Source: Sinomicrobium kalidii
Lineage (GTDB): Bacteria > Bacteroidota > Bacteroidia > Flavobacteriales > Flavobacteriaceae
Assembly (NCBI RefSeq): GCF_021183825.1
Contig: NZ_CP089211.1
Location: 1,798,001 to 1,862,000 of the forward strand
Direction of reading: 5' to 3'
DNA length: 64,000 bases
The position numbers and the translations under genes are program-made. A model generated the notes under the pieces. The model was not told the DNA's origin. It ran no database searches and worked only from the letters and a program-made list of their open reading frames with translations. Below are positions 1-16,317 of the stretch, piece after piece (position 1 is the first letter of the stretch; the number at the start of each line of letters is the position of its first letter).

Positions 1-1545
1 CTGGTTTGCGGGCATGCTGTATACGTGGAAAACAACGGGGTATTTTTTTGAAGCATCAAAGTTCGGCGGCTTTATCATCCACGAATCCAATGCCACATCA
101 TCTTCAATCTGTATTTCGGAGTACGTGACCGGAGAAGGGTGGATCGCTTCGATCTTACTGCTCAGCGCTGCATTGTCCTCCATCGTTTTAACCACCTTGT
201 GGGCGGGTAATTTTACCAGCCTTGTCCGGGTAGGGATATCAAAGCGTGAAAAATTCTGGAAAGCCCATTTGCCATCCGGTGAAATATCGTATTTATGGGT
301 CCCTGTTTCTTTTTCGGGTGTAATTCTTTCGATCTTTCCTTTTCCGTCCAGGCTGGCCCTGAACAGATACAGGTGCAGGCTGTTTTCCGGGGAAGCGTGG
401 AAGTACACCCATTTGCTTTTGGGGGCTGCCCTGACCTGTGTTTTATTGAACACATCGAATTCTCCCGGGGTGATACACGTTTTTTGTTTGCCGTCCGAAG
501 TGATCTTGTACAGGTGTCTCCAGCCGTCATTTTCACTCATCCACAGAAAATCGGAACCGCCGTTGAGCCAGACCAGGTCAAAAGCATCCAGAAAGGTATC
601 TTCTTGTTCGGTATAAATCTTTTCGGTATTCCGGCTGCCTGCTTCCGCGACAAAAATGTCCATGACGTTTTGATTGCGGTTTAGCTTTTGTATATACAGC
701 TTATTGGATTTGGGGTTCCACTTGAGATTGGTTATATAAGAATTTCTGTAGTCCTCACCTATATCCGGCCAGGTGACCTTTTGAGTAGCGACTTCTACGA
801 TTCCGGGTTTTACGGCCGGGAGTGTTTTTCCGGGTTTGATGTATTGAAATTCCTTGACAAAAGGATAGAGGGAATCCGTATTGTTGATGATCTTGTAGGT
901 GGGAACCTCCTTTGTATCGAACTGGTTGAAAGCTACATACTTGCTGTCCGGACTCCAGTAATGGTCGCGGGAGCTGAGGATGGATGCAAACCGGAAAGAA
1001 GCATTGGAGTTGATAATTTCATCGCTTCCGTCGGTTGTCAACCGGATTGTTTTTTTATTGCGGACATCATATGCGTATATATCTGATTTACACACAAATG
1101 AGACCATCTTATTGTCCGGGGACAACTTTAGATTCCTGGGGATTCCCAGAGTCTTATCAAGGAGCAGCTCCGTATTTGTATTGCCTGTTAAGTCTACGAG
1201 AAAGATACGTGTTTTACCTTCGGTATTCAGGCTGACGATCACTGCGGATCCATCTTCCGAAAAAGTGTAATTCCTTATTTTTCCCTTTTTGTTTTTACCT
1301 ATCAGTCCGGCAACTGAGACCAGTATCTTTTGTTCTTTTGTGCCGGCAACGTAACCGACAAGTCTTCCCGTTTCATTGTCCAGGTGGACGTACCGGTTTT
1401 CGTTTGTCCACGAACTGTAGTCGGCCTTTTTGGCTATAAAGCTGCCGTTTGTGATATTCTCAATGTTGAGTTTTACCTCTTGTGCCCCGGATATTGTGCT
1501 TAGCAGTCCGGACACGATCAATAATATTTTTTTTACAGGTCTCAT
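1..1545 (-). CDS. S9 family (dipeptidyl peptidase IV-like) peptidase, 3' end outside window
   Basis: The frame is open from an ATG at 1545 to the first base of the window (515 codons) and continues outside it. A signal peptide ends near residue 21 (ISGAQ). What follows is the beta-propeller of DPP IV-type serine peptidases, with blade motifs such as WSPDSKYVAF and W-M-S-E-N-D-G-W at about residues 335-342, then the start of the hydrolase domain near residue 490. The catalytic Ser/Asp/His lie beyond the window. I do not see the double-Glu motif (as in WVYEEE) that binds the substrate amino terminus in true DPP IV, so the exact specificity is open. The protein should be periplasmic or surface exposed, cleaving peptides. 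It lies 159 bp downstream of a sulfatase gene on the same strand, across a long hairpin, and fits the peptidase/sulfatase theme of the locus. Confidence 0.88.
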   Translation of the reverse strand, partial: MRPVKKILLIVSGLLSTISGAQEVKLNIENITNGSFIAKKADYSSWTNENRYVHLDNETGRLVGYVAGTKEQKILVSVAGLIGKNKKGKIRNYTFSEDGSAVIVSLNTEGKTRIFLVDLTGNTNTELLLDKTLGIPRNLKLSPDNKMVSFVCKSDIYAYDVRNKKTIRLTTDGSDEIINSNASFRFASILSSRDHYWSPDSKYVAFNQFDTKEVPTYKIINNTDSLYPFVKEFQYIKPGKTLPAVKPGIVEVATQKVTWPDIGEDYRNSYITNLKWNPKSNKLYIQKLNRNQNVMDIFVAEAGSRNTEKIYTEQEDTFLDAFDLVWLNGGSDFLWMSENDGWRHLYKITSDGKQKTCITPGEFDVFNKTQVRAAPKSKWVYFHASPENSLHLYLFRASLDGKGKIERITPEKETGTHKYDISPDGKWAFQNFSRFDIPTRTRLVKLPAHKVVKTMEDNAALSSKIEAIHPSPVTYSEIQIEDDVALDSWMIKPPNFDASKKYPVVFHVYSMPANQ

Positions 1546-1601
1546 TTGGTTTCTGAAAATTATAGTTGAACTCGTTTGATTTTTTTGGATTTGATATTTT
1601 T

Positions 1602-1667
1602 CCCGCAGATGATGCAGATCCCCGCAGAAAGCACTAAAAATCTGCGCCTATCTGCATCATCTGCGGG
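1602..1667. repeat. 18-bp perfect inverted repeat, terminator-like hairpin
   Basis: CCCGCAGATGATGCAGAT at 1602-1619 is the exact reverse complement of 1650-1667. A second hairpin, CGCAGA (1623-1628) with TCTGCG (1641-1646), is nested inside. It lies between the sulfatase and the S9 peptidase, both on the minus strand, so it may end or attenuate the upstream transcript. The sequence resembles dispersed intergenic repeats seen in Bacteroidota, but I cannot check copy number here. Confidence 0.75.
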
Positions 1668-1704
1668 CTGTCTTTTTAAGTTAGACCATTGGTTTGCTCA
1701 TTTT

Positions 1705-3279
1705 TTAATCCTTTAAATCAAACCCCTTACTCAATTCCCGGTGCATTTGCGCTATTAATGCCTTGTTTGCAGGGTCTTTGGCTATATTGATATTTTCCCG
1801 GGGGTCATTTTCATGGTCGAAGAGCTCTTTAGCAATGAGTTCTCCTTTTGATTTTGTGTTTTTATCCCAATGGTACCACTCCATATACCGGTAGCGGTCC
1901 GTTCGGACGGTATATCCCATTCTTTCCTGTTTTCTGTATTCGGCAGGGCCGAACCTTCCGAGCAGGAATTGACTGTAGGCGGCATCTTTTATTTCCGTAT
2001 TCACATCCTTTAACAGGGGGTTGAGGCTTTTACCCTGTAAATATTCCGGGACTTCAAATCCGGCAAGATCGCAAAGAGTGGGATAGACGTCTACGAATTC
2101 GGTCAGGGAATTTGATGTTTTTCCTTTTTCCTTCACTCCTTTTCCACTGATAATGAGGGGAACTCGGGTGTCTATTTCGTAATTGGACATTTTTGCCCAA
2201 CTGTTGTGTTCTCCGAGTTTCCATCCGTGATCTCCCCATAGGACAACAATGGTATTTTCCCTGAGCCCCAGGCGGTCCAGTTCCTCCAGTAACCTTCCCA
2301 CCTGTGTATCTATATAGGATACGCAGGCGTAATAGGCATGCTTTATTTCCCGCTGCCGTCTCTCCTCCCAGGGTTCGTCTTGTGGTTTCGGCAGATCATG
2401 ACTACCTGTATATGCCCGTAATTCCGCATCGCCGTGTACAGCAAAAAGGGGGCTGCCTTTGGGAACGTATGGATTAGGGGCCAGGGGAATGTCTTCGCTG
2501 TTGTATAGGTCCCAGTATTTTTCCGGAGCGTTAAGAGGGAGGTGGGGCTTATAAAACCCGATGGACAAAAAGAACGGTTGCTTTCTGTCTTTTAGTTCTC
2601 CCAGCTTTTTGATGGCCATCGTGGTCTGGGCGCCGTCATAATAGTCATCATCGTCTACATCCGCCGTTTCAAAGGCTTTTGCCTTAGTATAAATAAAGCC
2701 GTAGTGGTCAAATCCGGCCTTTCCGTTTTTTAAAAGCCGAAGTTCTTTTTCCTTTTGGATAATCAGGTTGTCCGGGTCAGTATAAACCGCATCGGGATCG
2801 AATGGAAAGCCATCGACATGTAATTTTTCATTCCAGGATATCGTATCGGGGAATATGTTGTGGAAGGTTTTTCCGAAACCTACCGTATAATACCCGTTAT
2901 TCTTAAAAAATTGCGGTAATGTCACCAGGTCCGGCATGTGATCCCTGAAATTGGTCCCCAGGTCCCATACCCGGGTCGAATCGGGCCTGAGGCCTGTTAA
3001 TAAGCTGGTACGCGAAGGGGTACAGACAGCTTGTTGACAGTATGCGCGGTTAAAGACCACGCCATGGGATGCAAGTTTGTCTATATTGGGGGTCTTAACA
3101 ACATTATTGCCGTAACATCCCAGTTCGGGCCTCAGGTCATCAATGGGGATAAACAGTATGTTGGGCCTTTGTATTTCTGCCGTATCTCTTAATCGGGGCT
3201 CTTTACTTTTATCTTCCCTGCAAGAACTCAGGGCCAAAAGGCCAACAAGTAGAAATACCCGGAGTTTACCTGTTTTCAT
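1705..3279 (-). CDS. Lipoprotein sulfatase, iduronate-2-sulfatase-like (S1 family)
   Basis: A formylglycine-dependent sulfatase that hydrolyses sulfate esters on a glycan. The ATG at 3279 is chosen over a GTG at 3306 because it starts directly before a lipoprotein signal (LLALSSC, Cys20), giving 524 residues. Metal-binding Asp47-Asp48 sit in the FIPIDDLRPELGCYGN block. The C-x-P-S-R activation signature is CTPSR with Cys86, which needs maturation by a formylglycine-generating enzyme, and WGDHGWKLGEHNSW supplies further active-site residues. The overall pattern is that of bacterial iduronate-2-sulfatase-like enzymes, though substrate cannot be read from sequence. It follows the F5/8 metallopeptidase by 74 bp and is a paralogue of the sulfatase at 5078-6649. 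No sulfatase-maturation gene is seen in the window. Confidence 0.92.
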   Translation of the reverse strand: MKTGKLRVFLLVGLLALSSCREDKSKEPRLRDTAEIQRPNILFIPIDDLRPELGCYGNNVVKTPNIDKLASHGVVFNRAYCQQAVCTPSRTSLLTGLRPDSTRVWDLGTNFRDHMPDLVTLPQFFKNNGYYTVGFGKTFHNIFPDTISWNEKLHVDGFPFDPDAVYTDPDNLIIQKEKELRLLKNGKAGFDHYGFIYTKAKAFETADVDDDDYYDGAQTTMAIKKLGELKDRKQPFFLSIGFYKPHLPLNAPEKYWDLYNSEDIPLAPNPYVPKGSPLFAVHGDAELRAYTGSHDLPKPQDEPWEERRQREIKHAYYACVSYIDTQVGRLLEELDRLGLRENTIVVLWGDHGWKLGEHNSWAKMSNYEIDTRVPLIISGKGVKEKGKTSNSLTEFVDVYPTLCDLAGFEVPEYLQGKSLNPLLKDVNTEIKDAAYSQFLLGRFGPAEYRKQERMGYTVRTDRYRYMEWYHWDKNTKSKGELIAKELFDHENDPRENINIAKDPANKALIAQMHRELSKGFDLKD

Positions 3280-3353
3280 ATTCTTTATTTTAGGTTTATT
3301 TATCACTGAAAGCGTTCTACAATTTTTGTCGTGGAACGCTTTGCCAATTGCAA

Positions 3354-5066
3354 TTAATCGACAATGATATCAAGCTCGTTAATAGTTAAATTTTCTACGC
3401 CATTACCCGTGTAGACCTCATCTACGGTAATCCTGATATAGCGCGCCGTCTGCTCATTGTCAAACAGTACCTTTACATCCGTATTATTTATGGGTTCCGT
3501 ATAATCTGCGGCAGTGGTAAACACGATATTATCACTGCTCAGTTCAACAAGAACATGCTTGGGCCTGAATTGCGGGTTGGGCGTTCTGAGAGAGTGCATA
3601 TAAATACCGTTAAAGGTGTTTTCCTCTCCCATATCCACATTTATGATATGCGGCGTATCTGAAGCAGATTGCGTGGGCCAGTCTGAAAACCAGAAGGTAC
3701 TGAAGTCTCCATCCAGCATAGTCTCGGCTCCCTGGGCAATTGGTTGGCCATGTGTTGTAGTATTTGCAGTGATCGACCATGTTGAGCGGTCTGAAAGCAC
3801 AACAGTTTCTTTATTGATATTATTATCCGGCTCCGGACTGTTGGCTGAAGAAATAGTAAAATTATACGTAAGCGGAATTTCTCTGAAACCGTTTTCGGTA
3901 AGTATGTTTACAGAAAACTCGATGTTATTGTCTGTTTTAATTCCATCCCGATCAAAGCCGTTAAAAAATTCTGAATACGGCATCTCAAGTTCGGCCTTAT
4001 ATTCATTTGTATTTCCGGTAGGCATTGCCGTTGTTGTAAATGCAACTTTATCATAGTCAGAGTTTGTAGCTGTCGGTTCTGCATCCATACCGACATAAAG
4101 ATATTTTGCGGGAATATCTGACGTGAAGGTAAAAGTTGCTTTGGTCGCCTGAATGCTATTATCTTTTTCAACGGCGTAAGAGACCATCTTTACATCCGGT
4201 TCCTCCGCATAGTAATCAATACCATTATCGGTTTTATTAAAAACTGCGCAAACATCGAATATGGCTAAGCTCGAAGCGAGAAATTTCACTTCGTCTTCCC
4301 GGCCTCCGGTATCCCATCTGTTAGCTCCGCCTCCTCCCATAATACTCAGATAAGGACTTTCTGAAGCCTGGTGCGCAACGTGCGGGGCGTTTAGTGCATG
4401 GCCCAGTTCATGAAGTAGCGTACCGTATTTTACCGAGGTTAATAGCTGTAGGCCATCTATTGTTTTCCCCGTGTTTACCATCGTAAAATCATCAGGTGAT
4501 CTGGCAACCGCCATTCTGCCATTTGCATTATTCTGAAAACCTGTACCATCATCACATAATATAAGAGTGTGCGCTCCGCCTGCCTCATCCGGTATACTTT
4601 CAAGGTAGGTCCTGACCTCAGTTCTTACCTCATTGTTATTCGCATATTCATCGCTGGCCTTATTTCCGTAAACAGGGATCACGCGTACATCGGTATTTGA
4701 GTTCCTGGTAAATAATGCAAAGGTTTTATCCGGATACCCTCCTAATTCCATTTGCTTTTTATACCATTCCTGGGCAAAAAGCATGGCTTCACTCAAATTA
4801 GACTGAATCGTACTTTCTTTTGATTCATAAACATTTACAAAGTCGGTAGGTATAAAATACACCACATTGAGCGGTTCCTGATCGGGCCTGTTCGCGGTAA
4901 AGACTTCGTCGGGGTAGGTATTGTCATCCGGTTCTTCATCGGGCTTTTCCATTACGGTTTCCTCTTCAACCAGATCAGAGGAGCAGGAAACAAAGTTTGC
5001 AGAAATACAAAATGCCATAAGCAGCCCTGAAACTTTTTTGATAACATTCATCTTGATGGTTTTCAT
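3354..5066 (-). CDS. Lipoprotein metzincin-type zinc metallopeptidase with C-terminal F5/8 type C domain
   Basis: A 570-residue lipoprotein with the lipobox FVSC (Cys28). The central domain carries a zinc site of metzincin type, HELGHALNAPH (His219, Glu220, His223, His229), with a candidate Met-turn at SIMGGGG (Met243). The last 140 residues form a discoidin-like F5/8 type C module (CBM32-like), suggesting binding to a glycan or glycoprotein. The predicted role is endoproteolysis of a glycosylated protein at the outer membrane surface. It starts 11 bp after the stop of the neighbouring sulfatase, so the two are almost certainly co-transcribed. A second in-frame ATG at 5051 is an alternative start. 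I do not assign a named peptidase family beyond metzincin-like. Confidence 0.85.
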   Translation of the reverse strand: MKTIKMNVIKKVSGLLMAFCISANFVSCSSDLVEEETVMEKPDEEPDDNTYPDEVFTANRPDQEPLNVVYFIPTDFVNVYESKESTIQSNLSEAMLFAQEWYKKQMELGGYPDKTFALFTRNSNTDVRVIPVYGNKASDEYANNNEVRTEVRTYLESIPDEAGGAHTLILCDDGTGFQNNANGRMAVARSPDDFTMVNTGKTIDGLQLLTSVKYGTLLHELGHALNAPHVAHQASESPYLSIMGGGGANRWDTGGREDEVKFLASSLAIFDVCAVFNKTDNGIDYYAEEPDVKMVSYAVEKDNSIQATKATFTFTSDIPAKYLYVGMDAEPTATNSDYDKVAFTTTAMPTGNTNEYKAELEMPYSEFFNGFDRDGIKTDNNIEFSVNILTENGFREIPLTYNFTISSANSPEPDNNINKETVVLSDRSTWSITANTTTHGQPIAQGAETMLDGDFSTFWFSDWPTQSASDTPHIINVDMGEENTFNGIYMHSLRTPNPQFRPKHVLVELSSDNIVFTTAADYTEPINNTDVKVLFDNEQTARYIRITVDEVYTGNGVENLTINELDIIVD

Positions 5067-5077
5067 AATTCCGGTTT

Positions 5078-6649
5078 TTATAATGTGGGTCGGGCAGCTC
5101 TCCAGCCTTCTGCCAATTTTTCGGAAAGCTTTTCTACTAATGCTGTATTTTCCGGGTATCCTGCAATATTTTCGGTCTCATACAGGTCTGTTTTGTGGTC
5201 GTAAAGTTCTGCCGCTGCAAAATCCCCCCTTGTTTTGGTTTCATTATCCCAGGTATACCACTCTACATAATGATATCTCCCGGTCTGCATGGAATAGCCC
5301 ATGTATTCCTGTCCGTCCTTAGACATCCGTGACCTTCTTCTAAACTGGCTGAAAACAGCATCTTTCCAGGGGAGGTCGGGATTTTCAAACAGGGGAGCGA
5401 GACTGGTCCCCTGGAAATACCCGGCCTTTTCCACTTCCGCCAGATCACATACTGTGGGGAAGATGTCGACAAGCTCGGACAAGGCTGTTATTTTTTTTCC
5501 CTGCTTTTGATTCGATGGTTTTATAATCAGGGGGGTGTGGGTATCGATGCGGAAGTTGGTCTGTTTTCCCCAACCGTTATGATCTCCCAGTTTCCATCCG
5601 TGGTCACCCCAGAGCACAATAATAGTATTATCGTAAAGGTCCATAGCTTTCAACCCTTCTATCAACCGGCCTACCTGTGCATCGATAAAAGAAACACTGG
5701 CATAATATCCCCTTCGGAGGCTATCGGTATATTGTTCCGGCAAGGGAGCATCTTCGGGCCTGCCGATTTTGTGCGGGTTATGGTAAAACCGCAGTTCGTA
5801 GTTGGAGTCGGCAGCCATCACCGGGACGTTTTCGGGTAGCTTCGGATTGGGAGGGGAAGAAACGGATCCTTCCGGGTACAGGTCCCAGTATTTTTTGGGA
5901 ACTACAAAGGGAAGGTGGGGCCTGTAATATCCGAGTCCCATAAAAAAAGGTTGTTTTTTATCTTTTATCCTTTTCAGCGTTTCCAGGGCCAGGGTAGTTT
6001 GTTTGTCATCATAATAGATCGAATCGGGGAGGTCTGCGATCTCCATGGCCGGACCGCGGTTCCATCCATCGGCATAGAGTTCATGCGGGCTATCGACCTT
6101 TTCCAGTAGTTTGTTTCTCGTCGCTTCCTGTATGGCTTTAGACTCCGCCGTATACCAATACGTTTCGCCATCCCTGTAGCGATGAGGTTCCGTATTATAG
6201 GGGTAAGGCCGCAGATCGGGCTCATCCCACGAGATGGAGTCGGGCATAAAATTGTGGAAGATCTTCCCTATGTTCACTGTGTGGTATCCTGCCTTATGAA
6301 AGTACTGGGGCATGGTCACCGCATCCGGGTCAATCTTTCTGAACTCGTCCCCCAAATACCAGACCCGGGTAGAATCGGGCCTGTAGCCCAGCATGGTACT
6401 TGCCCTGGAGGGGGCGCAGACCGCCGACTGGCAATGCGTGTTCAGCATGGTCATGGAAACGGAAGCCAGGGCATCGATGTTCGGGGTTCTTATTTCCTCG
6501 TTCCCATAACACCCGAGTTCCGGTCTTAGGTCATCTATCGATAAGAGCAGTATATTCGGCCCCTTTGGCGGTTCGTCCTTTTTAGTTGCCGGTGACTGGC
6601 ACCCTGTTAAAAACAGGGAATACGCAATACAAAAAATAGTCGTTCTCAT
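5078..6649 (-). CDS. Lipoprotein sulfatase, iduronate-2-sulfatase-like (S1 family)
   Basis: The second formylglycine-dependent sulfatase of the locus, 523 residues. A short lipoprotein signal ends in FLTGC (Cys17). Asp39-Asp40 in LLSIDDLRPELGCYGN bind the metal, CAPSR places the formylglycine precursor at Cys78, and WGDHGWKLGDHNGW follows in the central region. It shares these blocks with the sulfatase at 1705-3279 but differs widely elsewhere, so they are paralogues that may act on different sulfate positions or residues. It lies 104 bp downstream of the T9SS metallopeptidase and 11 bp upstream of the F5/8 metallopeptidase. The target would be a sulfated glycan or glycoprotein glycan. The sulfatase superfamily is certain; the substrate is not. 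Confidence 0.92.
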   Translation of the reverse strand: MRTTIFCIAYSLFLTGCQSPATKKDEPPKGPNILLLSIDDLRPELGCYGNEEIRTPNIDALASVSMTMLNTHCQSAVCAPSRASTMLGYRPDSTRVWYLGDEFRKIDPDAVTMPQYFHKAGYHTVNIGKIFHNFMPDSISWDEPDLRPYPYNTEPHRYRDGETYWYTAESKAIQEATRNKLLEKVDSPHELYADGWNRGPAMEIADLPDSIYYDDKQTTLALETLKRIKDKKQPFFMGLGYYRPHLPFVVPKKYWDLYPEGSVSSPPNPKLPENVPVMAADSNYELRFYHNPHKIGRPEDAPLPEQYTDSLRRGYYASVSFIDAQVGRLIEGLKAMDLYDNTIIVLWGDHGWKLGDHNGWGKQTNFRIDTHTPLIIKPSNQKQGKKITALSELVDIFPTVCDLAEVEKAGYFQGTSLAPLFENPDLPWKDAVFSQFRRRSRMSKDGQEYMGYSMQTGRYHYVEWYTWDNETKTRGDFAAAELYDHKTDLYETENIAGYPENTALVEKLSEKLAEGWRAARPTL

Positions 6650-6753
6650 AGCAGTTATATTAAAATGGTGATACCAGTATAATTTTGTTTATTCTTAAAT
6701 ATTCGTATACACACCTTTTTGCCACGAATTCACGAATACTTTTAAATAACTAT

Positions 6754-8295
6754 TCATCGTTTAATAAATTTTTCAGTCGTGCTGCTGCCATCCTCAAACC
6801 GGGCGATAAAAAAGTAAATGCCCCGGGGCAGGGCCGATACAGAAACACCATTTTCGGGATCTCCGGAAAGTGCTGTAAGCTGTTGCCCGCTTGAGTTGAT
6901 AATATGCCACTCGAAAATCTGCTTTTCCGCATTGAAATACAGGAGGTTATTGGCAGGATTGGGATAAAGGTGAGGATTGTGTAATCGCTTTTCGGTTGTG
7001 GAGGGAATGATTTCTGCCATCACCGGACCGGAAGAAGCTAATTGGTAATTACCTATATAAGCGTGAAGTTTCCCCTTATCGGCCGTCATTTCAAAGCCCG
7101 GGCCAAAATTCACCTCTCCGGCGCTTATCGTAACATAGGCGTTGCCATCGACTGTCGAGGTTACATCGATATTCTGAGATGCCCTATATACATTTTCGCT
7201 GTTTACATCATAGCTGTTTAGGGGATGGTCTATGGTTATGGAATAATCATTGACCTCTGTATCAGGCAAACTACAGTTGCTACCGGAAAAAGCTACGGTT
7301 TTTCTTATATGATTTCCCGGCTGCGGCCCTAAGGCGAGGCTAAAATTAACACCCACATCACTGCATTTGGTAATTTTGCAGTAACTCATTATCGTCCCTT
7401 TATTATATTCGGGAACCGGTGGCCTTGAGCAGGGATCATTATTTAGTGCTTCCGTTTCCTTGCAGCCGTCTATGGCTGTATTATTTCCGTTCCAAAAGCA
7501 GCCTTGCGTATGAGGAGAACCCAAACTGTGTCCCAGTTCATGGGCCAATATATGGACTCCGTTAGACCAGTCCGGTAATCTCACGGTGTCATCAGGGTCA
7601 ACACCTCCCGCAACCAAAGCTCTTTCATATTTGGGGCGATTACTTCCATTTAGCCGTTTACATATGCCACTTCCGGCCCTGCTGGCTACCCCTGCATTTT
7701 TTCTTGATGTCAGTAAAACGGCTATATTGCCATTATAATCGGGGTTGTTATTCTCCAGGTAACTGGTAAAGCTTTGTAACATTTCACTCACCTTATTCCC
7801 CGTAAAGGGATCAGGAGTGTCCCAAACATCCATCCCTCCTATGCTGATGTTCACTTTTTCTGAAGCGTAGATGTCCGCAACCTGCTTAATGAGGACGTTT
7901 TCAATATAGTCCCTCGTTGCTGTTTCGTCATTAAAATTATTATACACAGAATTGTCTGCAACTACGTATAGTTCTACAATTTTTTCTGAAGACGTACTGT
8001 AATAGTCTTCTGCAAAAGGGTTATTTTGATAGATGCCACTTGAGGTGTTGTCATTGTATTCTACCGGTGTAGGGGTATATCCGTCACCACATACCTGGGC
8101 AAAGGAACAGTCCATAACATCATCGCCCAAAACTTCTGAATATTCCTGAGCCGAAGGACTTGCGTCTTCTTTTTTCCGTTGATCCGTAGAAAGTCCGAAA
8201 GTAGTCAGAACAATCAATCCAATAACTGTAGTGATTATAACTATCTTACGAAAAGACTTACTGGCCACTTTCTTTTTGTTTATATTGTGATCCAT
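6754..8295 (-). CDS. Secreted reprolysin-like (M12B-type) metallopeptidase with T9SS sorting domain
   Basis: A 513-residue secreted protease. An N-terminal hydrophobic segment (about residues 18-36) serves as signal. The catalytic domain has HELGHSLGSPH (His252, Glu253, His256, His262) and a Met-turn TIMSYC (Met303), the arrangement of adamalysin/reprolysin metallopeptidases. Paired cysteines around the active site (CFW, DGCKE, DPCSR, SYCKITKC) suggest disulfides. A repeat-like beta segment with VNFGPGFEM follows, typical of Bacteroidota secreted proteins. The last 75 residues form a type IX secretion sorting domain (LYPNPANNLLYF ... GIYFFIARFEDG). It should be exported through T9SS and released or attached at the surface. 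It starts 5 bp after the fibre-like gene, so these form one transcription unit. Confidence 0.9.
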   Translation of the reverse strand: MDHNINKKKVASKSFRKIVIITTVIGLIVLTTFGLSTDQRKKEDASPSAQEYSEVLGDDVMDCSFAQVCGDGYTPTPVEYNDNTSSGIYQNNPFAEDYYSTSSEKIVELYVVADNSVYNNFNDETATRDYIENVLIKQVADIYASEKVNISIGGMDVWDTPDPFTGNKVSEMLQSFTSYLENNNPDYNGNIAVLLTSRKNAGVASRAGSGICKRLNGSNRPKYERALVAGGVDPDDTVRLPDWSNGVHILAHELGHSLGSPHTQGCFWNGNNTAIDGCKETEALNNDPCSRPPVPEYNKGTIMSYCKITKCSDVGVNFSLALGPQPGNHIRKTVAFSGSNCSLPDTEVNDYSITIDHPLNSYDVNSENVYRASQNIDVTSTVDGNAYVTISAGEVNFGPGFEMTADKGKLHAYIGNYQLASSGPVMAEIIPSTTEKRLHNPHLYPNPANNLLYFNAEKQIFEWHIINSSGQQLTALSGDPENGVSVSALPRGIYFFIARFEDGSSTTEKFIKR

Positions 8296-8300
8296 GCTTT

Positions 8301-8972
8301 CTACTGTTTATGTTGTTGAATACGTTCCAGTTTTTTACGCTGCCCGATCAGGTAAAGGGTCAGTTCTTCTACTTTCTGTAAGAGCCGGTTGGTCATTTTC
8401 CCCGCATCGAGACCATTTTTCTTAATAGCTTCGGCAGAAGGGATTCCCGGTAAATGATGCTTAGCTTTTATAAAAGCTTCCACTTCTTTTAAAGGTGGCA
8501 TTCTATACCCGGGGAGTAATTCTGACTTTCCCGTATAGTATTTCTGGAAAACATAATCGGCCGGGATCTCATTGCTTACTTTAAAGGCAACAGCACGGAT
8601 TTCACCATTTACGGTGAGTTCGGAGTCGGGGTTTTGAGAACCTATGCCCACCAATCCTTCTTTGGCAACGGATAGCAGGTTGCCGGCGCCCGAGTTGATC
8701 TCAAACCTGTCACCGGTTCTGTGATGCCGCAAGGTAAATTGATCGTCGTCGGCTGAGTCATACAGTCGAATGGTAGGGGCATTAGTGTCATGGGAGATCT
8801 TTAATTCCCCTTTATCGATATGGAGGGACTGCTCCGGACCGGATGTCCCTATTCCCGCTTTTGTTCCGGTTACGTACAGGTCACCCCCGGCATTTGTCTG
8901 CCAGCCCTGAGCGTATATTCCTCCCTGCAGGAAGATAAAAATCGAAGAAAACAGATATATAAGATGTTTCAT
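8301..8972 (-). CDS. Secreted fibre-like protein (tail fibre/endosialidase-chaperone-like C terminus), copy 2
   Basis: A 223-residue protein with a signal peptide ending at IYAQG. The middle holds beta-rich repeats (AGIGTSGPEQSLHIDKG, VGIGSQNPDSELTVNGE) seen in phage tail-fibre-like proteins of Bacteroidota. The C terminus (YVFQKYYTG ... HHLPGIPSA ... LLQKVEELTLYLI) is a predicted coiled coil of the type found at the ends of such fibres. These modules usually trimerise; the role here is unknown, perhaps structural or adhesive. It is a close tandem duplicate of the gene at 8977-9642, with a 4 bp gap, and is followed 5 bp later by the T9SS metallopeptidase. No other phage genes are present, so this is not a prophage. 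Confidence 0.8.
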   Translation of the reverse strand: MKHLIYLFSSIFIFLQGGIYAQGWQTNAGGDLYVTGTKAGIGTSGPEQSLHIDKGELKISHDTNAPTIRLYDSADDDQFTLRHHRTGDRFEINSGAGNLLSVAKEGLVGIGSQNPDSELTVNGEIRAVAFKVSNEIPADYVFQKYYTGKSELLPGYRMPPLKEVEAFIKAKHHLPGIPSAEAIKKNGLDAGKMTNRLLQKVEELTLYLIGQRKKLERIQQHKQ

Positions 8973-8976
8973 GGCA

Positions 8977-9642
8977 TTATTGCTTTTCTTCGTTCATTAT
9001 TTGTTGGATCAATTCTTCCTGTTCTATAATATACAGGGTGAGTTCTTCTATTTTCCGGAGAAGCACATTGTTCATTTGCGCCAGGTCCATCCCTTTTTCC
9101 TGTAGTTCCTTGGCAGAAGGGACACCCGGCAGGTGGTGGTTCTCTTTTACAAATTTTTCCACTTCTTTCAGGGAAGGCATTGTATATTCGGGCAGCAGGT
9201 CAGATTCCCCAGTATAATACTTTTGAAAGACATAGTCTGCAGGAATATTCAAGCTAAGTTTTACGGCACTGGCATGTACACGTCCGTTTACGGTCAGTTT
9301 GGAATCGGGGTTTTGAGAACCTATGCCCACCAACCCTTCTTTGGTAATGGATAGCAAGGTGCCGGCGTCTGACCTGAGCTCAAACCTGTCACCGTTTCTG
9401 TGATGCCGCAAGACAAATTGATCGCCGTCGGCTGAGTCATACAGCCGTATGGTAGGGGCATTAGCGTCATGGGAGATCTTTAATTCCCCTTTATCGATGT
9501 GAAGGGCGTTTTCCGGATCAGACGTCCCGATCCCTACATTTGTTAATGCATATACATCGCCATTGGCGTTGGTATCCCATTGGGCATTGGACATATTGGC
9601 CATGAATAAAAGTATTCCCGATGTTATAAGTATTTTTTTCAT
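8977..9642 (-). CDS. Secreted fibre-like protein (tail fibre/endosialidase-chaperone-like C terminus), copy 1
   Basis: A 221-residue protein with a signal peptide (MKKILITSGILLFMANMSNAQ). It has the same layout as its downstream twin: short beta repeats with G-I-G-T/S motifs, the shared core ISHDANAPTIRLYDSADGDQF, and a C-terminal coiled coil ending in EELTLYIIEQEE. Several stretches match the twin almost base for base, pointing to recent duplication or gene conversion. The function is not recognised. Its position between SusD and the secreted metallopeptidase suggests a surface structural or substrate-contact role, but that is inference. Confidence 0.8.
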   Translation of the reverse strand: MKKILITSGILLFMANMSNAQWDTNANGDVYALTNVGIGTSDPENALHIDKGELKISHDANAPTIRLYDSADGDQFVLRHHRNGDRFELRSDAGTLLSITKEGLVGIGSQNPDSKLTVNGRVHASAVKLSLNIPADYVFQKYYTGESDLLPEYTMPSLKEVEKFVKENHHLPGVPSAKELQEKGMDLAQMNNVLLRKIEELTLYIIEQEELIQQIMNEEKQ

Positions 9643-9771
9643 AATGGTTTTGTTTTGTCTTTTAATGGTGAGCCGATTTAAACTTTTATTTTTGCGGTGT
9701 GATCCGGCTTATGACTTCAGGATCTATGACATAAGACATGCTGCGTATGAAGCATAGACAGGAGAATCCGA

Positions 9772-11202
9772 TTAACGGTTGTCATTAACAGACGCGTCGA
9801 TATTTTCATTTGCATCGGTCTCGCTCTCCGGAACCTGCATAACAAACTGTATATCGTTGGGCACTATAGTAAGTGCAATCAGGTGATTTGATGTTCTGGT
9901 AATCCCTCTTTGCAGACGTTTGGCATCAAACCATTCTACACCGATTTCTCCATAGAGTTCTTTTCGCCTTTCTAACAGGATCTCCTCTTCCAGGTCAGAA
10001 CCCGTATTAGTCGATTTTACGGCGTCGGGGTCCCTGTTTTGCTGAACATAAAACAATAAGTCGTGAGCCCCGTCTTCATCGCCTTGCCTGAATTTGGCCT
10101 CTGCTTCGGTCAGTACCATTTCCGGTTTTCTCAGAATTGGATAATCGAGGTTCTCTTTATCGAACAGGAATTTTGTAGTAGTCATATGCCTCACATTATT
10201 GACATTTGTATTATTGATTACAAAAAGATTACGCACATCGGTAGCAGAAAATAAATTTGTAAAGTTTACATTCATGTATCCTACCTTATAGGGGGCTAAA
10301 CCCGAACCCAGGATGTCTGTCCACGCAGCCGGAGTATGTGCCGAAACCCATTGATCGGGGGTTTGGTCGTACCCCCATATCCATTCCGGATTGTTAATGT
10401 CAATAAACCCGTCACCATAAAGTTCGGGTGCAAAAGAGCCCGCCAAATCGTTATTATAGGCCAGGTTAGCCATCTCTTCTGCTCCGGACCAGTTTTCCAT
10501 AGTTAAGTACACCCTGGCCAGAATACCTGCGGCTACCTGTTTATTGACATACGATTTACCCAGGCGATCTGAAGTTAAATTATCGACGGCAAAGGTTAAA
10601 TCGTCGACAATTAATTCATACATTTCTGCACAAGTACGCATTGATTTTCCTTCTGTAGTAAGTGCTGTATAGATCGGGCCTGCGGGAAAGGAAGGATCGA
10701 CCGAGTAGGCTTTTGAAAACTCCAGGGCCAGTTGAAAATAATAATACCCCCGTAAGGCTTTTCCCTTAGCGGAATAATAAGCTTTTTCACTATCGGACAA
10801 AGCGTCGAAAGCTTCAACACCGTTAATAAGGTTATTAATTTGGTTAATCATATGATAACAGAAGTTCCAAATAAACCTCGGCCTGTAATTATCAGCCGTT
10901 CTGCCGGTATAATCATAATCTATTCTCCAAAATCCGGTGCCTAAAAACATCATGTCATCCCCTTTCCAAATTCTCGACGTATAAAAGGACGCAATATTTG
11001 AATTTGCCTGCCCTGCAAAACGCCCTCTACCTTCCCGTATAATACCGGATATAAATGCCTCTACCCCGTCTGTGGAACCAAATACTACTCCTTCGGAAAC
11101 TTGTTGTGTGGGCTGGGGTTCGTCTAAAAAATCTGTAGAACAACCTGTCAAGGTTATTAATATGACAAACGTATATATTCTGAAAGTTGACAACTTTTTC
11201 AT
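9772..11202 (-). CDS. SusD-like outer-membrane glycan-binding lipoprotein
   Basis: A 476-residue SusD-family lipoprotein, the lid partner of the adjacent SusC transporter. The ATG at 11202 is preferred over a TTG at 11229 because it directly precedes the lipoprotein signal (ILITLTGC) and clears the SusC stop by 4 bp. SusD hallmarks are the N-terminal DFLDEPQPTQQVSEG, the helix segment AKGKALRGYYYFQLALEF with TPR-like helices, and the C-terminal LLERRKELYGEIGVEWFDAKRL. It binds oligomers at the cell surface for import. The ligand is not evident; neighbouring sulfatases and peptidases suggest a sulfated glycoconjugate. Confidence 0.94.
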   Translation of the reverse strand: MKKLSTFRIYTFVILITLTGCSTDFLDEPQPTQQVSEGVVFGSTDGVEAFISGIIREGRGRFAGQANSNIASFYTSRIWKGDDMMFLGTGFWRIDYDYTGRTADNYRPRFIWNFCYHMINQINNLINGVEAFDALSDSEKAYYSAKGKALRGYYYFQLALEFSKAYSVDPSFPAGPIYTALTTEGKSMRTCAEMYELIVDDLTFAVDNLTSDRLGKSYVNKQVAAGILARVYLTMENWSGAEEMANLAYNNDLAGSFAPELYGDGFIDINNPEWIWGYDQTPDQWVSAHTPAAWTDILGSGLAPYKVGYMNVNFTNLFSATDVRNLFVINNTNVNNVRHMTTTKFLFDKENLDYPILRKPEMVLTEAEAKFRQGDEDGAHDLLFYVQQNRDPDAVKSTNTGSDLEEEILLERRKELYGEIGVEWFDAKRLQRGITRTSNHLIALTIVPNDIQFVMQVPESETDANENIDASVNDNR

Positions 11203-11206
11203 CCGT

Positions 11207-14200
11207 TTAAAATTTAAGGTTAACACCAATGCTTATTGTTTTTAACTGTGGGGATCTAAAATTTGTTGATCCGGCTAAATCCTGCTCCGGGTCTATACCC
11301 TTGTGGCTCTGCCAGGTAAACAAGTTATCTCCGCGTAAATAAAACCTGACATTGTTTATGAAAATGGTATTTAACGTAGATTCCGGTAGGGAGTATCCTA
11401 ATGTTATCGCTCTCATTCTAATGTAGTCGTTATCAAACAGGAACCTGGTCGACGCACCGTTAAATTGGTTAGACGCCGTTAAATACAACGGAACATCTGT
11501 AATATCTCCCGGCTGCTGCCACCTATCGGCAGCTATATTTACACCATTGGGGTTACCCACAGCCTTATAACCTGCGCTAAGTCCCGCATAATTGGAATCG
11601 TATATCTGCCCTCCGTAAGAAAAAATGAATAGTGTATTGAAATCAAAATTCCCGAATTTTAAGCTGGTATTAAAACCGCCTGTAACGTCCGGCAGGGAAG
11701 ACCCTGAGTAATATCTGCCGGCATCACTAAAAGTTTTAGTTGTCACCCGTTCACCGGTTGGCTCTCCGTTATCGTCCAAAACATCCTGATACCACATACC
11801 ATAACCGTCTTCCGGGTCTACACCGGCCCATTCCCGGATATAGAAGTCAAAAATCGACCTTCCCACTTCCAATCTTTTATTTCCTCTGATAACCGATTCC
11901 TGAGTAAGTTCCGTAACTTCATTGTTAACCCGGGTGAAGTTAATCCCGGCAGACCAGGTTAATTTATCGGCTCTGATTATATCGGCATCCAAATTGAACT
12001 CTATCCCATAATTTCTGAGAGAACCAATATTTGTGGTGATACTTGTGTTCCCTGTAGATCCGGGTAAAGGTTTGGCGAAAATTAAGTCTATAGATTCTTT
12101 ATTGAAATAACCTATGGTGCCCTGCAGCCTGTTGTCGAGAAATCCGAAATCCAGACCTATGTCTGTAATAGCCGTGGTTTCCCATGTAAGATCGGGGTCT
12201 GTAATCCCTCCGAGGAGCACACCTTTGTTTTCTAAATTACTAACTCCCGTGTTATACCCCTGCAGGTAAGGAAAAAGACCAAAACCACTGTTATTGCCCA
12301 GCTCTCCGTAAGATGCCCTTAATTTTAACAAATTAACGGCGCCACTGTCCTTCAGGAAATTTTCATCAGATATAATCCAGGACCCGCCAATAGAATAAAA
12401 ATTACCCCATCTTTGATTTGTTGCAAATTTTGTAGAACCATCCCGGCGGAATGAGCCTTCGATAAAATATTTATCCCTGTAGTTATAACCTATCCTGCCC
12501 AAATATGAAGTCAATCGTTCCTCACCAACATACCCGCTGACATTCGTTGGAGTTGCAGCTCCGTTAAGCACGGAAATATTTGCTAAAAAATCTGTACCTG
12601 TTGCTCCTAAAGGGTCGAACTTATATTGGTAGGTCTCAAAAATAGCATTGGCATTAATGGTATGATCGCCAAATGTTTTATTGAATGATAAATTGTTATT
12701 AACATTAAGTGTCGTTGTAATGTTTCTGTTCTGAATTACTCGTCCGCCCAAATCTCTACCGAAACCGCCATACGGGTTTGAATAACTATAGCCGTTATAA
12801 AGAAAATGCTGATATGCTATATTCGTTTTAAATGCTAAAAAATCCGTAAACTTTACATCGATGAAACCATTTGCAATGATGGTGGTGTTCTTATCAATAT
12901 GCTTATCGTCAAACAACATGCCTACAGCGTTATAATTTCCATTAATCGGCCTTGAACCGTTTAAATCATTGCCATTATTACCATAGTCATAGATTTTGGC
13001 ACCTGTGGCATCCAATACATAAGCCCCTGTAGCATCTCTTCTGTAAATCGGAAAAACGGAAGCAACATTGTAAGACCACCCTATCGGATTGCCCATGGCA
13101 TTCCCGGACTGAGTCGGGTTATTGGATTTTGAAGTTGTTATTGCAGTATTAAGCCCAAGAGTCAACCAGTCCTTTAATTTGCTGTCAAGGTTAACACGGG
13201 TAGATATACGTTCAAAATCCGAATTTCTCATAGCTCCTTCCTGATTCAGATAATTGATGGACACGAAGTATTTGGACTTGTTACTCCCTCCGCCTATTCC
13301 CAATGTATACTCATTACGCAATGACGTTTTATTCAGCAATGCATCCTTCCAGTCAGTATCCCAAAGCAGTTCCGCTCCCGGAACAATATTACCTTCAGCA
13401 TCGATGGGTTGTGCCACATTATAGGGATTGTAACCCAAATCAGCTATGATACCGTTAGCCGCATTTTGACCGGCCTGTTCTGCAGATTGCCCGTCTACGT
13501 ATTGAAATGTATTACGTCTGGCTTCCCAGAAATGGCGCAGATAACTTTCGGCACCTTCTGCTTCGTGTAAATCAACTGCCGGGGAAGAGAACCCGGTTAC
13601 CGCCGTAGCGGTTACCTGCAGATTCGAGTTGAATTTCCCTCTTTTTGTAGTGATTAAAATCACCCCGTTAGCACCTCTGGAACCGTATAGTGCCGTAGAA
13701 GAGGCATCTTTTAAAACGTTCATAGACTCTATCTGGTCAGGACTTATGGAATTCAGGTTTCCGTTAAAGGGAACTCCATCTACCACATATAATGGGCCGG
13801 CATTTGCATTAATTGAAGAAATACCGCGTATCCTTATCGTGGGATTACTTCCCGGCTGCCCTCCGGAAGTAATGACATTTACCCCGGGTACAGTACCTTG
13901 AAGAGCCTGTGTTACTGAAGTCAATTGCTGTGCCTCTATATTTTCAGAATCGAGAGAAGAAACAGAACCCACTAATGATTTTTTAGTCTGATTGCCATAA
14001 GCAACAACTATAACTTCATCCAGCTCATTTCCGGGCTGCATCATAACATCAAGCTGATTTGAAGTTCCTACGGTAATACTTTGCTTCTGCATACCCACAT
14101 AGGAGAACACCAAAACATCTCCTGTTGCCGCACGAATAGTATACATTCCGTCAAAATCTGTTTGAACTCCTCTACCCGTTCCGCTAACAACAATATTTAC

Positions 14201-14323
14201 CCCGGGGAGTATCAAACCGTCAGCATCTTTTACCACTCCACTAATTGTTCGCTGTTGAGCACTGACAGTTTGTGTCAGTAAGAGGCTAAAAAACAATAAG
14301 ACCCTTGTAATTTTTACCGTCAT
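11207..14323 (-). CDS. SusC-like TonB-dependent outer-membrane transporter
   Basis: A 1038-residue SusC/RagA-family transporter. The ATG at 14323 begins a good signal peptide ending at VSAQQ; a longer frame starts only with TTG. A carboxypeptidase-D regulatory-like domain (about residues 25-100, SGVVKDADGLILPGVNIVVSG) is followed by the TonB plug with the DEVIVVAYGNQTKKS box, LQGTVPGVNVITSGGQPG and SLYGSRGANGVILITTKRG. The beta-barrel fills the rest and ends in a terminal Phe (VNLKF). It forms the import pore with the SusD at 9772-11202. The 554 bp upstream leader and the TPR/LuxR regulator beyond it suggest that regulator controls this operon. Confidence 0.95.
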   Translation of the reverse strand: MTVKITRVLLFFSLLLTQTVSAQQRTISGVVKDADGLILPGVNIVVSGTGRGVQTDFDGMYTIRAATGDVLVFSYVGMQKQSITVGTSNQLDVMMQPGNELDEVIVVAYGNQTKKSLVGSVSSLDSENIEAQQLTSVTQALQGTVPGVNVITSGGQPGSNPTIRIRGISSINANAGPLYVVDGVPFNGNLNSISPDQIESMNVLKDASSTALYGSRGANGVILITTKRGKFNSNLQVTATAVTGFSSPAVDLHEAEGAESYLRHFWEARRNTFQYVDGQSAEQAGQNAANGIIADLGYNPYNVAQPIDAEGNIVPGAELLWDTDWKDALLNKTSLRNEYTLGIGGGSNKSKYFVSINYLNQEGAMRNSDFERISTRVNLDSKLKDWLTLGLNTAITTSKSNNPTQSGNAMGNPIGWSYNVASVFPIYRRDATGAYVLDATGAKIYDYGNNGNDLNGSRPINGNYNAVGMLFDDKHIDKNTTIIANGFIDVKFTDFLAFKTNIAYQHFLYNGYSYSNPYGGFGRDLGGRVIQNRNITTTLNVNNNLSFNKTFGDHTINANAIFETYQYKFDPLGATGTDFLANISVLNGAATPTNVSGYVGEERLTSYLGRIGYNYRDKYFIEGSFRRDGSTKFATNQRWGNFYSIGGSWIISDENFLKDSGAVNLLKLRASYGELGNNSGFGLFPYLQGYNTGVSNLENKGVLLGGITDPDLTWETTAITDIGLDFGFLDNRLQGTIGYFNKESIDLIFAKPLPGSTGNTSITTNIGSLRNYGIEFNLDADIIRADKLTWSAGINFTRVNNEVTELTQESVIRGNKRLEVGRSIFDFYIREWAGVDPEDGYGMWYQDVLDDNGEPTGERVTTKTFSDAGRYYSGSSLPDVTGGFNTSLKFGNFDFNTLFIFSYGGQIYDSNYAGLSAGYKAVGNPNGVNIAADRWQQPGDITDVPLYLTASNQFNGASTRFLFDNDYIRMRAITLGYSLPESTLNTIFINNVRFYLRGDNLFTWQSHKGIDPEQDLAGSTNFRSPQLKTISIGVNLKF

Positions 14324-14877
14324 AAGTAATGTGTTTGAATTAATAAAAGATTTATTCCTGAACAAGCTCGCATGGATTTGCAACAGTTAATCCAAAAAAC
14401 CGATTCCCGCGCATAACCACATAACACACTGAATATCATATAGAATAACCTGGAATTAAGACCTTGTTTAAAAAATACCTGCCGACAGCCCCGATATTCT
14501 TACCGGGATCAATTCCGTTTAAACATGCTCTAATACTGTAATTACCATCAAAATCCATCCGGGGCCTCCGGGTGATATTTGTTACCCGGGCATAGGATAA
14601 TTGTATTATACATAAAAGGGCGAAGACAATGAAAATTCCGGTTTGTTCTCATAGTGTCAGTTGGTTTGCGTATTGTGGTACGGCTAATGTAGGTAATAGG
14701 GTCAGAAAAGAATTGATAAAAAAAAGCATATAGTGATACTATTGTGCGGTGCGATAAAAGGTTCGGGCACGAATGTAAGTAAGTTTTATTAAGAAGGGGA
14801 ATATGGGACAGGGCGAAAATGAAGATTGAAGATTCTGACCAACTTATAAGATGGGAAGAGCCCTAAAGCCCTAAATC
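14324..14877. other. Intergenic leader upstream of SusC, gene-free
   Basis: There is no credible gene in these 554 bases between the regulator stop and the SusC start, both on the minus strand. The stretch should hold the SusC promoter, but I find no clean -33/-7 Bacteroidota pair (TTTG / TAnnTTTG). It contains a copy of a motif with core GTTTAAACATGCTCTAA at 14511-14533 that recurs upstream of the acetylesterase at 34 kb. Confidence 0.6.
14511..14533. repeat. Dispersed 23-bp motif, copy 1
   Basis: The sequence matches 34097-34119 at 22 of 23 bases; the shared core is GTTTAAACATGCTCTAA. It lies about 190 bp upstream of the SusC start. It could be a regulatory site, an element end or a dispersed intergenic repeat. 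Confidence 0.55.
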
Positions 14878-16317
14878 TTAGTTGCCATCATTTAAAGTCT
14901 TAAAAAAGCAATATAGATCTACATGGGTCGGTATACTGAGCTTTTTTCGGAGCCTGTATTTTTTTACCTGAACTGTTTTGTGGGTGACGAAAGTATATCT
15001 TGCAATTTCTTTTGAAGAAAAATTTAACCAGATGTAGGCACATAAAGTAAATTCCGAGGGAGTCAGGGCCGGCTTTATCTTTAACAGTTTTTCTGAAAAT
15101 TCGAGGTATACTTCCTGAAACTTTCTGGTAAATGCGGGATCGTTGTTCTTTGCTAACTTTACCACCTCATCAAAGGCCTGGTTCATTTTCTTTTTCAGTA
15201 ATACATTTTCTCTTTCCCTATTTACTATTAACTCATTTTTTCTCCGGTTTCTAAAAAACAATACGGTAAGTATGAGAATAAGGGAGAATGTTATCAATCC
15301 GAGGATGTTGTAGAGCCTTTTATGAGACGATACATGTTCCCTTTCCTTTTGTTCCAGCAATATGTTAAGAGAAGCATTAATAGCGTTATTTTTTAATTTG
15401 TGTATACTGTCGTTAAAAACCTTGTGTTTCTGTCTGTACAAGAGTTCCATTTTCTTGTTTTGTAAAATGCCATATATACCGATCAATGATTCATAAGTAT
15501 TTATATACACATAGGGTACATTAATAGCTTTTGCAAACTCCAGCGCCTTATTATAATGGACAATAGCTGTTTCGTAATCTTTAATTTCCGAACAGTAACT
15601 GCCGAATACCTGGTTCACGACTGCTTTTTCATAAATGGTTGCATTGTCATTCTCTACTATGGAGAACGCTCTTTTCAGGTAATATGCTGTTGAATCCAGG
15701 TCTCTTTCTTCCGCATAGTACAGATAATGATCGGCCAGATTGGAGAGATTGACGGGTTTAGGCCTTATTTTTACAGATTTGTAAAGATAGACAAGAGACG
15801 AGTCCGGAAGATTTAGGTTACGCAAAAAAACGCTTCTGCTCCCGTACATGTATGACAGAACCTTTCTTTTTCGGGTGGCATCTCGTATGTTTTTAATATA
15901 TTTCAAGGCTATGGTATTGTTTTTCAAAGCCTGGTGATACAACCCCATACTATTGTAAGTCTGTGCGTATTCCTGATAGATTTTCCCTCTTAAAAACGGA
16001 TTATTGATCTTTTTCGATTTGGTTTCGGCTATATTTAAAAATTCAATGCTTTCCTCATATTTTCCAATGATCCAAAGAGCATTTCCAACATTGATGTAGC
16101 CCAGTATTTCTCCTTCGGTATAGTTTTGCTTTTTTGAAATTTCAATAAACCGGATATTCCATTTAATAACTTTATCATACCTCCCCTGCACCTTAAAATT
16201 CCGGCTTCCACTTTGTATCAGGCTGTCAATTTCTTTAGAAGAATAATCCTGAGCGTTCAAAATGTAACTCTGAAAGAATAAGGAAATAAAAATTATATAT
16301 CGGTAATTCTTCAACAT
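14878..16317 (-). CDS. TPR-containing membrane regulator with C-terminal LuxR-type HTH
   Basis: A 479-residue protein with a signal peptide (to about LNAQD), a long helical periplasmic region built of TPR-like repeats (about residues 30-310), one transmembrane helix near residues 333-353 (GLITFSLILILTVLFF), a short coiled coil, and a cytoplasmic helix-turn-helix at about residues 415-475 (LTPSEFTLCAYIWLNFSSKEIARYTF ...). This one-component architecture is common in Bacteroidota next to SusCD operons and links a periplasmic signal to transcription. It lies directly upstream of the SusC/SusD-peptidase-sulfatase operon on the same strand, so it is the likely regulator. There is no kinase or receiver domain. 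The ligand is unknown. Confidence 0.83.
   Translation of the reverse strand: MLKNYRYIIFISLFFQSYILNAQDYSSKEIDSLIQSGSRNFKVQGRYDKVIKWNIRFIEISKKQNYTEGEILGYINVGNALWIIGKYEESIEFLNIAETKSKKINNPFLRGKIYQEYAQTYNSMGLYHQALKNNTIALKYIKNIRDATRKRKVLSYMYGSRSVFLRNLNLPDSSLVYLYKSVKIRPKPVNLSNLADHYLYYAEERDLDSTAYYLKRAFSIVENDNATIYEKAVVNQVFGSYCSEIKDYETAIVHYNKALEFAKAINVPYVYINTYESLIGIYGILQNKKMELLYRQKHKVFNDSIHKLKNNAINASLNILLEQKEREHVSSHKRLYNILGLITFSLILILTVLFFRNRRKNELIVNRERENVLLKKKMNQAFDEVVKLAKNNDPAFTRKFQEVYLEFSEKLLKIKPALTPSEFTLCAYIWLNFSSKEIARYTFVTHKTVQVKKYRLRKKLSIPTHVDLYCFFKTLNDGN

Follow-up and report, generated by a model that had tools for sequence, protein, structure and literature searches.

Results

An eleven-gene cluster of SusC/SusD, peptidases and sulfatases

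We analysed a stretch of 64,000 nucleotides from the flavobacterium Sinomicrobium kalidii (contig NZ_CP089211.1), hereafter the window, which corresponds to G000:C1:1798001-1862000 of a genome assembled as a single 5.36-Mb contig. Coordinates are window positions unless prefixed G000, which denotes the bacterium's own genome. The left end of the window carries most of a minus-strand cluster of eleven genes encoding, in order, SusC, SusD, fibre-like proteins 2 and 1, an M12B metzincin, sulfatase B, a second metzincin, sulfatase A, an S9 peptidase, a DUF885 protein and sulfatase C. Intergenic gaps range from -23 to 159 bp. The cluster extends left of window base 1, where the rest of the S9 gene, the DUF885 gene and the sulfatase C gene are followed by a convergent AraC gene (G000 1792940-1793848, plus strand). 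A Pfam scan detected no glycosidase or lyase among the eleven genes. Regarding the canonical criteria of a polysaccharide utilization locus (PUL), the SusC/SusD pair is present and a co-located glycoside hydrolase (GH) or polysaccharide lyase (PL) is absent. An initial annotation of the window had described SusC/SusD linked to two sulfatases, two different metzincins, an S9 peptidase and two fibre-like proteins in a block free of glycosidases and lyases, possibly directed at sulfated glycoproteins. Pfam and TIGR profiles and motifs recover every feature it named, and the cluster is larger than the window shows. The genes left of base 1, where many glycosidases would have counted against that interpretation, encode the DUF885 protein and a third sulfatase.

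The SusC/RagA TonB-dependent transporter (11207..14383) matches TIGR04056 at 816 bits, and its best PDB match is a "SusC homolog" (331 bits), followed by RagA (294 bits). The true start is probably near 14323, judging from the alignment with an ortholog in a second genome (locus L045, described below), with which the protein shares 83% identity. The SusD-like lipoprotein (9772..11229; PF14322, PF07980) is 85% identical to its counterpart there and probably starts near 11202. Fibre-like proteins 2 (8977..9642) and 1 (8301..8972), the latter 63% identical to the former (P0030), match PHROGs tail-fibre profiles, all weakly. The family is common, with 1542 matches at E <= 1e-8 including the window's own, and the two proteins, though present as initially described, therefore carry little weight. 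The M12B (reprolysin-type) metzincin (6754..8295) satisfies the Reprolysin profile (PF13688, E 3e-19) and has the HExxHxxGxxH motif, as HELGHSLGSPH, and a Met-turn. It ends in a type IX secretion system (T9SS) sorting tail (PF18962, TIGR04183). Sulfatase B (5078..6649) is separated by 11 bp, the short gap remarked on in the initial annotation, from the second metzincin (3354..5066), which carries HELGHALNAPH and a C-terminal CBM32-like F5/8 type C domain. Sulfatase A (1705..3306) precedes the S9 (DPP-IV-type) peptidase (PF00930, PF00326; GWSGGG), which is cut by the window end (1..1545) and complete at G000 1797353-1799545. The DUF885 protein (G000 1795560-1797290) is of unknown function according to Pfam and we take it to be a putative peptidase. 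Both it and the S9 enzyme retain the motifs that we presume to be catalytic. Sulfatase C lies at G000 1793908-1795563.

Upstream of SusC, the minus strand carries a candidate operator, a conserved stretch (14726..14747) with the inverted repeat ATAGT-atc-ACTAT, of which an identical copy lies upstream of SusC in L045. Further upstream lies a gene for a TPR-LuxR type regulator (14878..16317, minus strand; PF13424, PF00196). The second genome has a homolog with 68% identity upstream of its cluster as well (L093), with an opposite-strand gene intervening.

The cluster is conserved in a second genome and under purifying selection

A Sinomicrobium metagenome-assembled genome contains all eleven genes in identical order and orientation (L045), as recognised by BLAST to the cluster genes, and the AraC gene there is 89% identical; the flanks of L045 were inspected by eye only. 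Protein identity ranges from 67% (M12B) to 86% (SusD). Nonsynonymous differences per site (pN 0.08-0.20) are below synonymous differences (pS 0.62-0.80) in 11/11 genes, and dN/dS is at most 0.105 in the six of eleven genes with unsaturated dS. The cluster genes are under purifying selection. A chance neighbourhood is ruled out by the synteny of eleven genes in a second genome together with this selection. Most genes are equal in length between the two loci; in the sister locus the fibre-like proteins (L045:6166-7147) are shorter by 44 and 70 residues and the M12B protein by 106.

The locus is conserved in two genomes and seems rare. Searching a named genome collection with the second metzincin matched 14 stretches, one of which (L045) encodes a relative. 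Across some 5.8 billion proteins, a word-limited search gave 28 relatives including the metzincin itself, and genome searches added more distant members. It is matched (E <= 1e-10) in 16/397 genomes of the family, and relatives above 40% identity occur only in its own genome. Sulfatase C has, besides itself, one relative at E <= 1e-130 in 378 genomes, and the listed matches do not include G782. Among five further genomes of the genus searched for SusD, the best identity is 86% in G782, whose contig is apparently that of L045, 51% with an internal stop in G781, and 33% or less in the other three. The remainder of the cluster was not found around the G781 SusD gene (L092), and no peptidase-sulfatase cluster was seen beside SusD relatives of 50-56% identity (L120-L122).

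The second metzincin has the fold of the O-glycopeptidase OgpA

The two metzincins belong to different families. The catalytic part of the second metzincin has no Pfam family above cut-off (best PF12044, E 0.006). Its catalytic and beta-sandwich domain adopts the OgpA fold. The zinc-binding and catalytic residues H205, E206, H209 and H215 of OgpA and the Met-turn residue M231 are kept in the focal protein and in 55/55 alignment rows. The VIA list is mostly occupied by matches to the CBM32-like domain, and the absence of other folds there is uninformative. The N-terminus (CSSDLVEEE) is lipoprotein-like; by the export rule as given in PMC5080379 the signal is present in form, and the sulfatases are mixed in this respect. 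The focal protein falls in a subclade of 13 rows that is set apart by a branch supported at 100/100. At the position of OgpA W199, 7/13 rows of this subclade (6 distinct proteins) have lysine, which also occurs outside the subclade in P0012, L089, L096 and L097.

We compared 23 other OgpA-family genes, a count that excludes the focal gene, its L045 ortholog, L106 (on a 3.3-kb contig) and matches confined to the F5/8 domain or to fragments. Twelve of the 23 lie behind a same-strand SusC and SusD-type gene with at most one gene between, where SusD was called by BLAST to reference SusD or by position and lipoprotein start and not always by Pfam. A further gene follows SusCD with two sulfatases between (L089). 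The neighbourhood search suggested by the initial annotation gave a partly positive result, with a sulfatase directly adjoining the OgpA-family metzincin in a SusCD locus in four of 23 cases (L089, L096, L099, L100), three of which also have GH97 or GH95. Immediate adjacency exceeds the expected 0.21 (P ~5e-5), in a test picked after viewing the loci and based on rounded genome sizes.

Two further OgpA-family metzincins of the bacterium's own genome lie in SusCD loci. One of these (L046, G000:C1:2545001-2565000) encodes a heparinase II/III-type lyase and a PL8 lyase, the latter with CBM96 and a T9SS tail. In a related locus of G683 (L107), two proteins are of the heparinase II/III type, and we could see no PL8. 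The other (L047, G000:C1:531001-551000) looks mucin-like, with an M60 peptidase, GH2 and GH29, and resembles a G683 locus (L101) with M60, GH2, GH20 and GH29.

The sulfatases and their neighbourhoods in other genomes

Sulfatases A, B and C are S1 formylglycine sulfatases, matching PF00884 at E 1e-39 to 1e-50 and carrying the signature C-x-P-S-R, as CTPSR, CAPSR and CNPSR. The top PDB match of all three is the ulvan S1_7 enzyme 6hhm, with C scoring lower than A and B. Human iduronate-2-sulfatase comes second for both B (E 2e-70) and A (E 6.5e-83). As described in PMC5066984 and PMC9096561, S1_7 includes human iduronate-2-sulfatase, the ulvan enzyme P18_S1_7 (6HHM) and kappa-carrageenan enzymes. 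For sulfatase maturation, a search for the anaerobic maturase TIGR03942 found none, and FGE-type (formylglycine-generating enzyme) proteins are encoded (5 matches to PF03781). Some of these matches may, we assume, be T9SS proteins sharing the fold.

Relatives of sulfatase B at E <= 1e-120 occur in ten genomes besides its own among the 397 searched, and we read the surroundings in nine of these, all but G519. In four of the nine (L111-L114), B and A have orthologs of 68-72% identity that are direct neighbours, separated by 7-42 bp with no metzincin between them. The order in L111-L113 is a BPSS1187-family protein, TPR-LuxR, SusC, SusD, B, A and an Asp/Glu racemase, where the TPR-LuxR homologs upstream of SusCD are 33-36% identical to the window gene. 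SusD is of the RagB type (PF12771/PF12741) in L111 and L112, the two loci scanned. The two genes that flank the focal metzincin are thus direct neighbours elsewhere, suggesting its recruitment into a sulfatase operon. Alternatively, the metzincin may have been lost from the pair in other genomes.

The two sulfatases, the racemase and the BPSS1187-family protein form a conserved set in L111-L114, with SusCD in L111-L113. The racemases of L112-L114 have N-terminal extensions resembling signal peptides. Sulfatase signatures with CTTSR, CATSR and CTASR instead of C-x-P-S-R occur at L111:8166-9731, L111:9774-11336 and L114:9654-11219. A racemase-type sulfatase locus in G336 has a Cas9-like protein nearby (1518 aa, by eye; L123:11112-15668) and an AraC gene that shares 35% identity with that of the focal cluster (L123:2143-2991).

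Loci on either side of the cluster

The plus strand at 17370-41621 carries a separate xyloglucan-type locus with GH31 and a hybrid two-component regulator (both by eye), SusC, SusD, an SGBP-B xyloglucan-binding domain protein, a sortilin/BNR repeat protein with a T9SS tail, a SASA esterase, GH5, GH43 and GH97. We rejected the GH31 gene and the genes to the right of it as parts of the cluster, since they lie on the opposite strand, their content is of xyloglucan type, and L045 shows no match to GH31 over its 21.7 kb. On the other side, beyond the AraC gene to the left, another plus-strand block (L022/L023, G000:C1:1774376-1792456) encodes SusCD, an SSS-type transporter, phosphodiesterase-like and GDPD-like proteins, two sugar kinases and a phosphoglycerate-mutase-like protein, and looks by eye like a phosphodiester or polyol utilization locus.

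Discussion

A candidate locus for sulfated glycoprotein utilization

We consider it somewhat more probable than not that the cluster is a SusCD-linked locus for the utilization of sulfated glycoprotein in the form of O-glycopeptides. The OgpA fold of the second metzincin provides strong and independent support for a glycoprotein target, and the interpretation given in the initial annotation is supported in part. We infer the sulfated O-glycopeptide substrate, the cellular location of the proteins, the order of steps and regulation by the AraC and TPR-LuxR proteins. In such a scheme, the OgpA-fold lipoprotein protease would act at the cell surface, anchored on its substrate through the CBM32-like domain, and cleave the glycoprotein, as would the secreted M12B protease. 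Glycopeptides would then be taken in through SusC/SusD, stripped of sulfate by the S1_7-like sulfatases A, B and C and trimmed by the S9 and DUF885 enzymes. Leftover sugar might be processed by glycosidases encoded elsewhere.

A number of observations weigh against this interpretation. The six residues by which OgpA contacts Gal-GalNAc (Y116, F166, K198, W199, N235 and Y236) are all replaced in 13/13 rows of the focal subclade (0/6 kept), so that a glycan dependence of the second metzincin is putative. OgpA-family genes stand outside SusCD operons in 10/23 cases (L048 twice, L050, L091, L097, L098, L103, L104, L108, L109), and a sulfatase within 20 kb is not significantly enriched (4/23 observed vs 2.05 expected, P 0.14). 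The cluster lacks any glycosidase, and the T9SS tail of the M12B protein is absent in L045. S1_7 enzymes are known from glycosaminoglycan (GAG), ulvan and carrageenan. Elsewhere, the B-A pair is accompanied by an Asp/Glu racemase and a RagB-type SusD, a context that fits a sulfated peptide equally well. In L112, two GH3 genes follow B, A and the racemase on the same strand, which speaks against the pair lying in surroundings entirely free of glycosidases. In five genomes (L115-L119), homologs of sulfatase B with 53-56% identity also occur outside this cluster type.

The peptide alternative replaces the glycan as substrate with a sulfated peptide or another conjugate of amino acids, with peptidases and sulfatases acting on peptides and SusCD serving as a RagAB-like peptide importer. 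We judge it unlikely. It draws on the lack of a glycosidase or lyase in the cluster and among the eleven L045 orthologs, and on the position of the B-A pair in L111-L113 between RagB-type SusD and a racemase that hints at amino acids in the substrate. Relatives of the focal SusCD (L120, L122) also lie in stretches where we saw no carbohydrate-active enzyme by eye. However, the second metzincin combines the OgpA fold with a CBM32-like domain, the nearest solved sulfatases act on sugars, and the PDB matches of SusC are indecisive.

Alternatively, the S1_7-like sulfatases could act on GAG chains of proteoglycans, in trans with the PL8 and heparinase II/III locus L046, and the peptidases would clear away the core protein. 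Iduronate-2-sulfatase as the second-best solved match of B and A, together with the presence of that OgpA-family SusCD locus in the same genome, would fit such a role. Yet the cluster has no lyase, none of this kind was seen beside the A and B orthologs in L111-L114 (by eye; part of the genes scanned), and S1_7 covers ulvan and carrageenan enzymes too, which makes a proteoglycan locus quite improbable in our view. An ordinary sulfated polysaccharide such as an ulvan-like one, with peptidases that hitch-hike or clear bound protein, would agree with 6hhm as the top match of all three sulfatases, with the sulfatase richness of many searched genomes and with the GH3 genes in L112. We regard it as very improbable, as no polysaccharide-cleaving enzyme is present in the eleven-gene locus conserved in two genomes, and the M12B, OgpA-fold, S9 and DUF885 genes are conserved together with it.

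A tentative and rather doubtful extension is that the focal subclade, with lysine at the position of OgpA W199 in 7/13 rows, exchanged the Gal-GalNAc site for one reading a sulfated or acidic glycan, and that its member here was inserted into the sulfatase pair so as to couple proteolysis with desulfation. Bacteroidota would then have a glycosidase-free route to feed on sulfated glycoproteins, and a protease requiring sulfated O-glycans would represent a new enzyme specificity. To our knowledge, few tools exist for mapping sulfated O-glycoproteins, and the locus would supply candidate proteases.

Comparison with known systems

Among the papers listed, we found no account of this gene combination, judging by titles and abstract openings in a search that most subscription journals lay outside. 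As outlined in PMC6298971, a glycoprotein target was earlier proposed for a PUL type from the North Sea that includes peptidases, and PMC8406133 describes the use of sulfated arabinogalactan protein by B. plebeius through a sulfatase plus glycosidases. The nearest solved structures of sulfatases A and B are S1_7 enzymes, as are those of C at lower scores. The loci L111-L113 share with the focal cluster both sulfatases and the TPR-LuxR gene upstream of SusCD, but differ in having no OgpA-fold metzincin that we could see, a racemase and a BPSS1187-family protein instead, and another SusD subtype. With Akkermansia muciniphila OgpA, as described in PMC7518263, the second metzincin shares the fold, the HELGHxLNxPH zinc motif and the Met-turn. 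It differs from that 385-residue enzyme in its CBM32-like domain, in all six Gal-GalNAc contacts and in its placement in a SusCD-sulfatase locus.

The closest described system is the Bacteroides thetaiotaomicron PUL BT4240-50. According to PMC11992087, the opening cut in mucin is made there by an M60 O-glycopeptidase that carries CBM32, and the glycopeptides are imported through SusCD in the proposed model. A protease as the opening cut instead of a glycanase is thus already worked out for mucin. That PUL has a surface lipoprotein O-glycopeptidase beside SusC/SusD, with an endopeptidase in the role of an endo-glycanase. Parts of the focal cluster resemble it, with a putative lipoprotein peptidase that has a CBM32-like domain and would play this role beside SusC/SusD. 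The BT4240-50 peptidase is M60-like, in contrast to the OgpA fold here, and that PUL carries GH2, GH109 and a kinase, whereas the focal cluster has three sulfatases, M12B, S9 and DUF885 proteins and no glycosidase. The same logic might operate here with sulfatases and peptidases replacing glycosidases. A conserved, glycosidase-free flavobacterial version, with three sulfatases and an OgpA-fold protease with a rebuilt sugar site, would suggest that other Bacteroidota, too, use sulfated glycoprotein as a nutrient.

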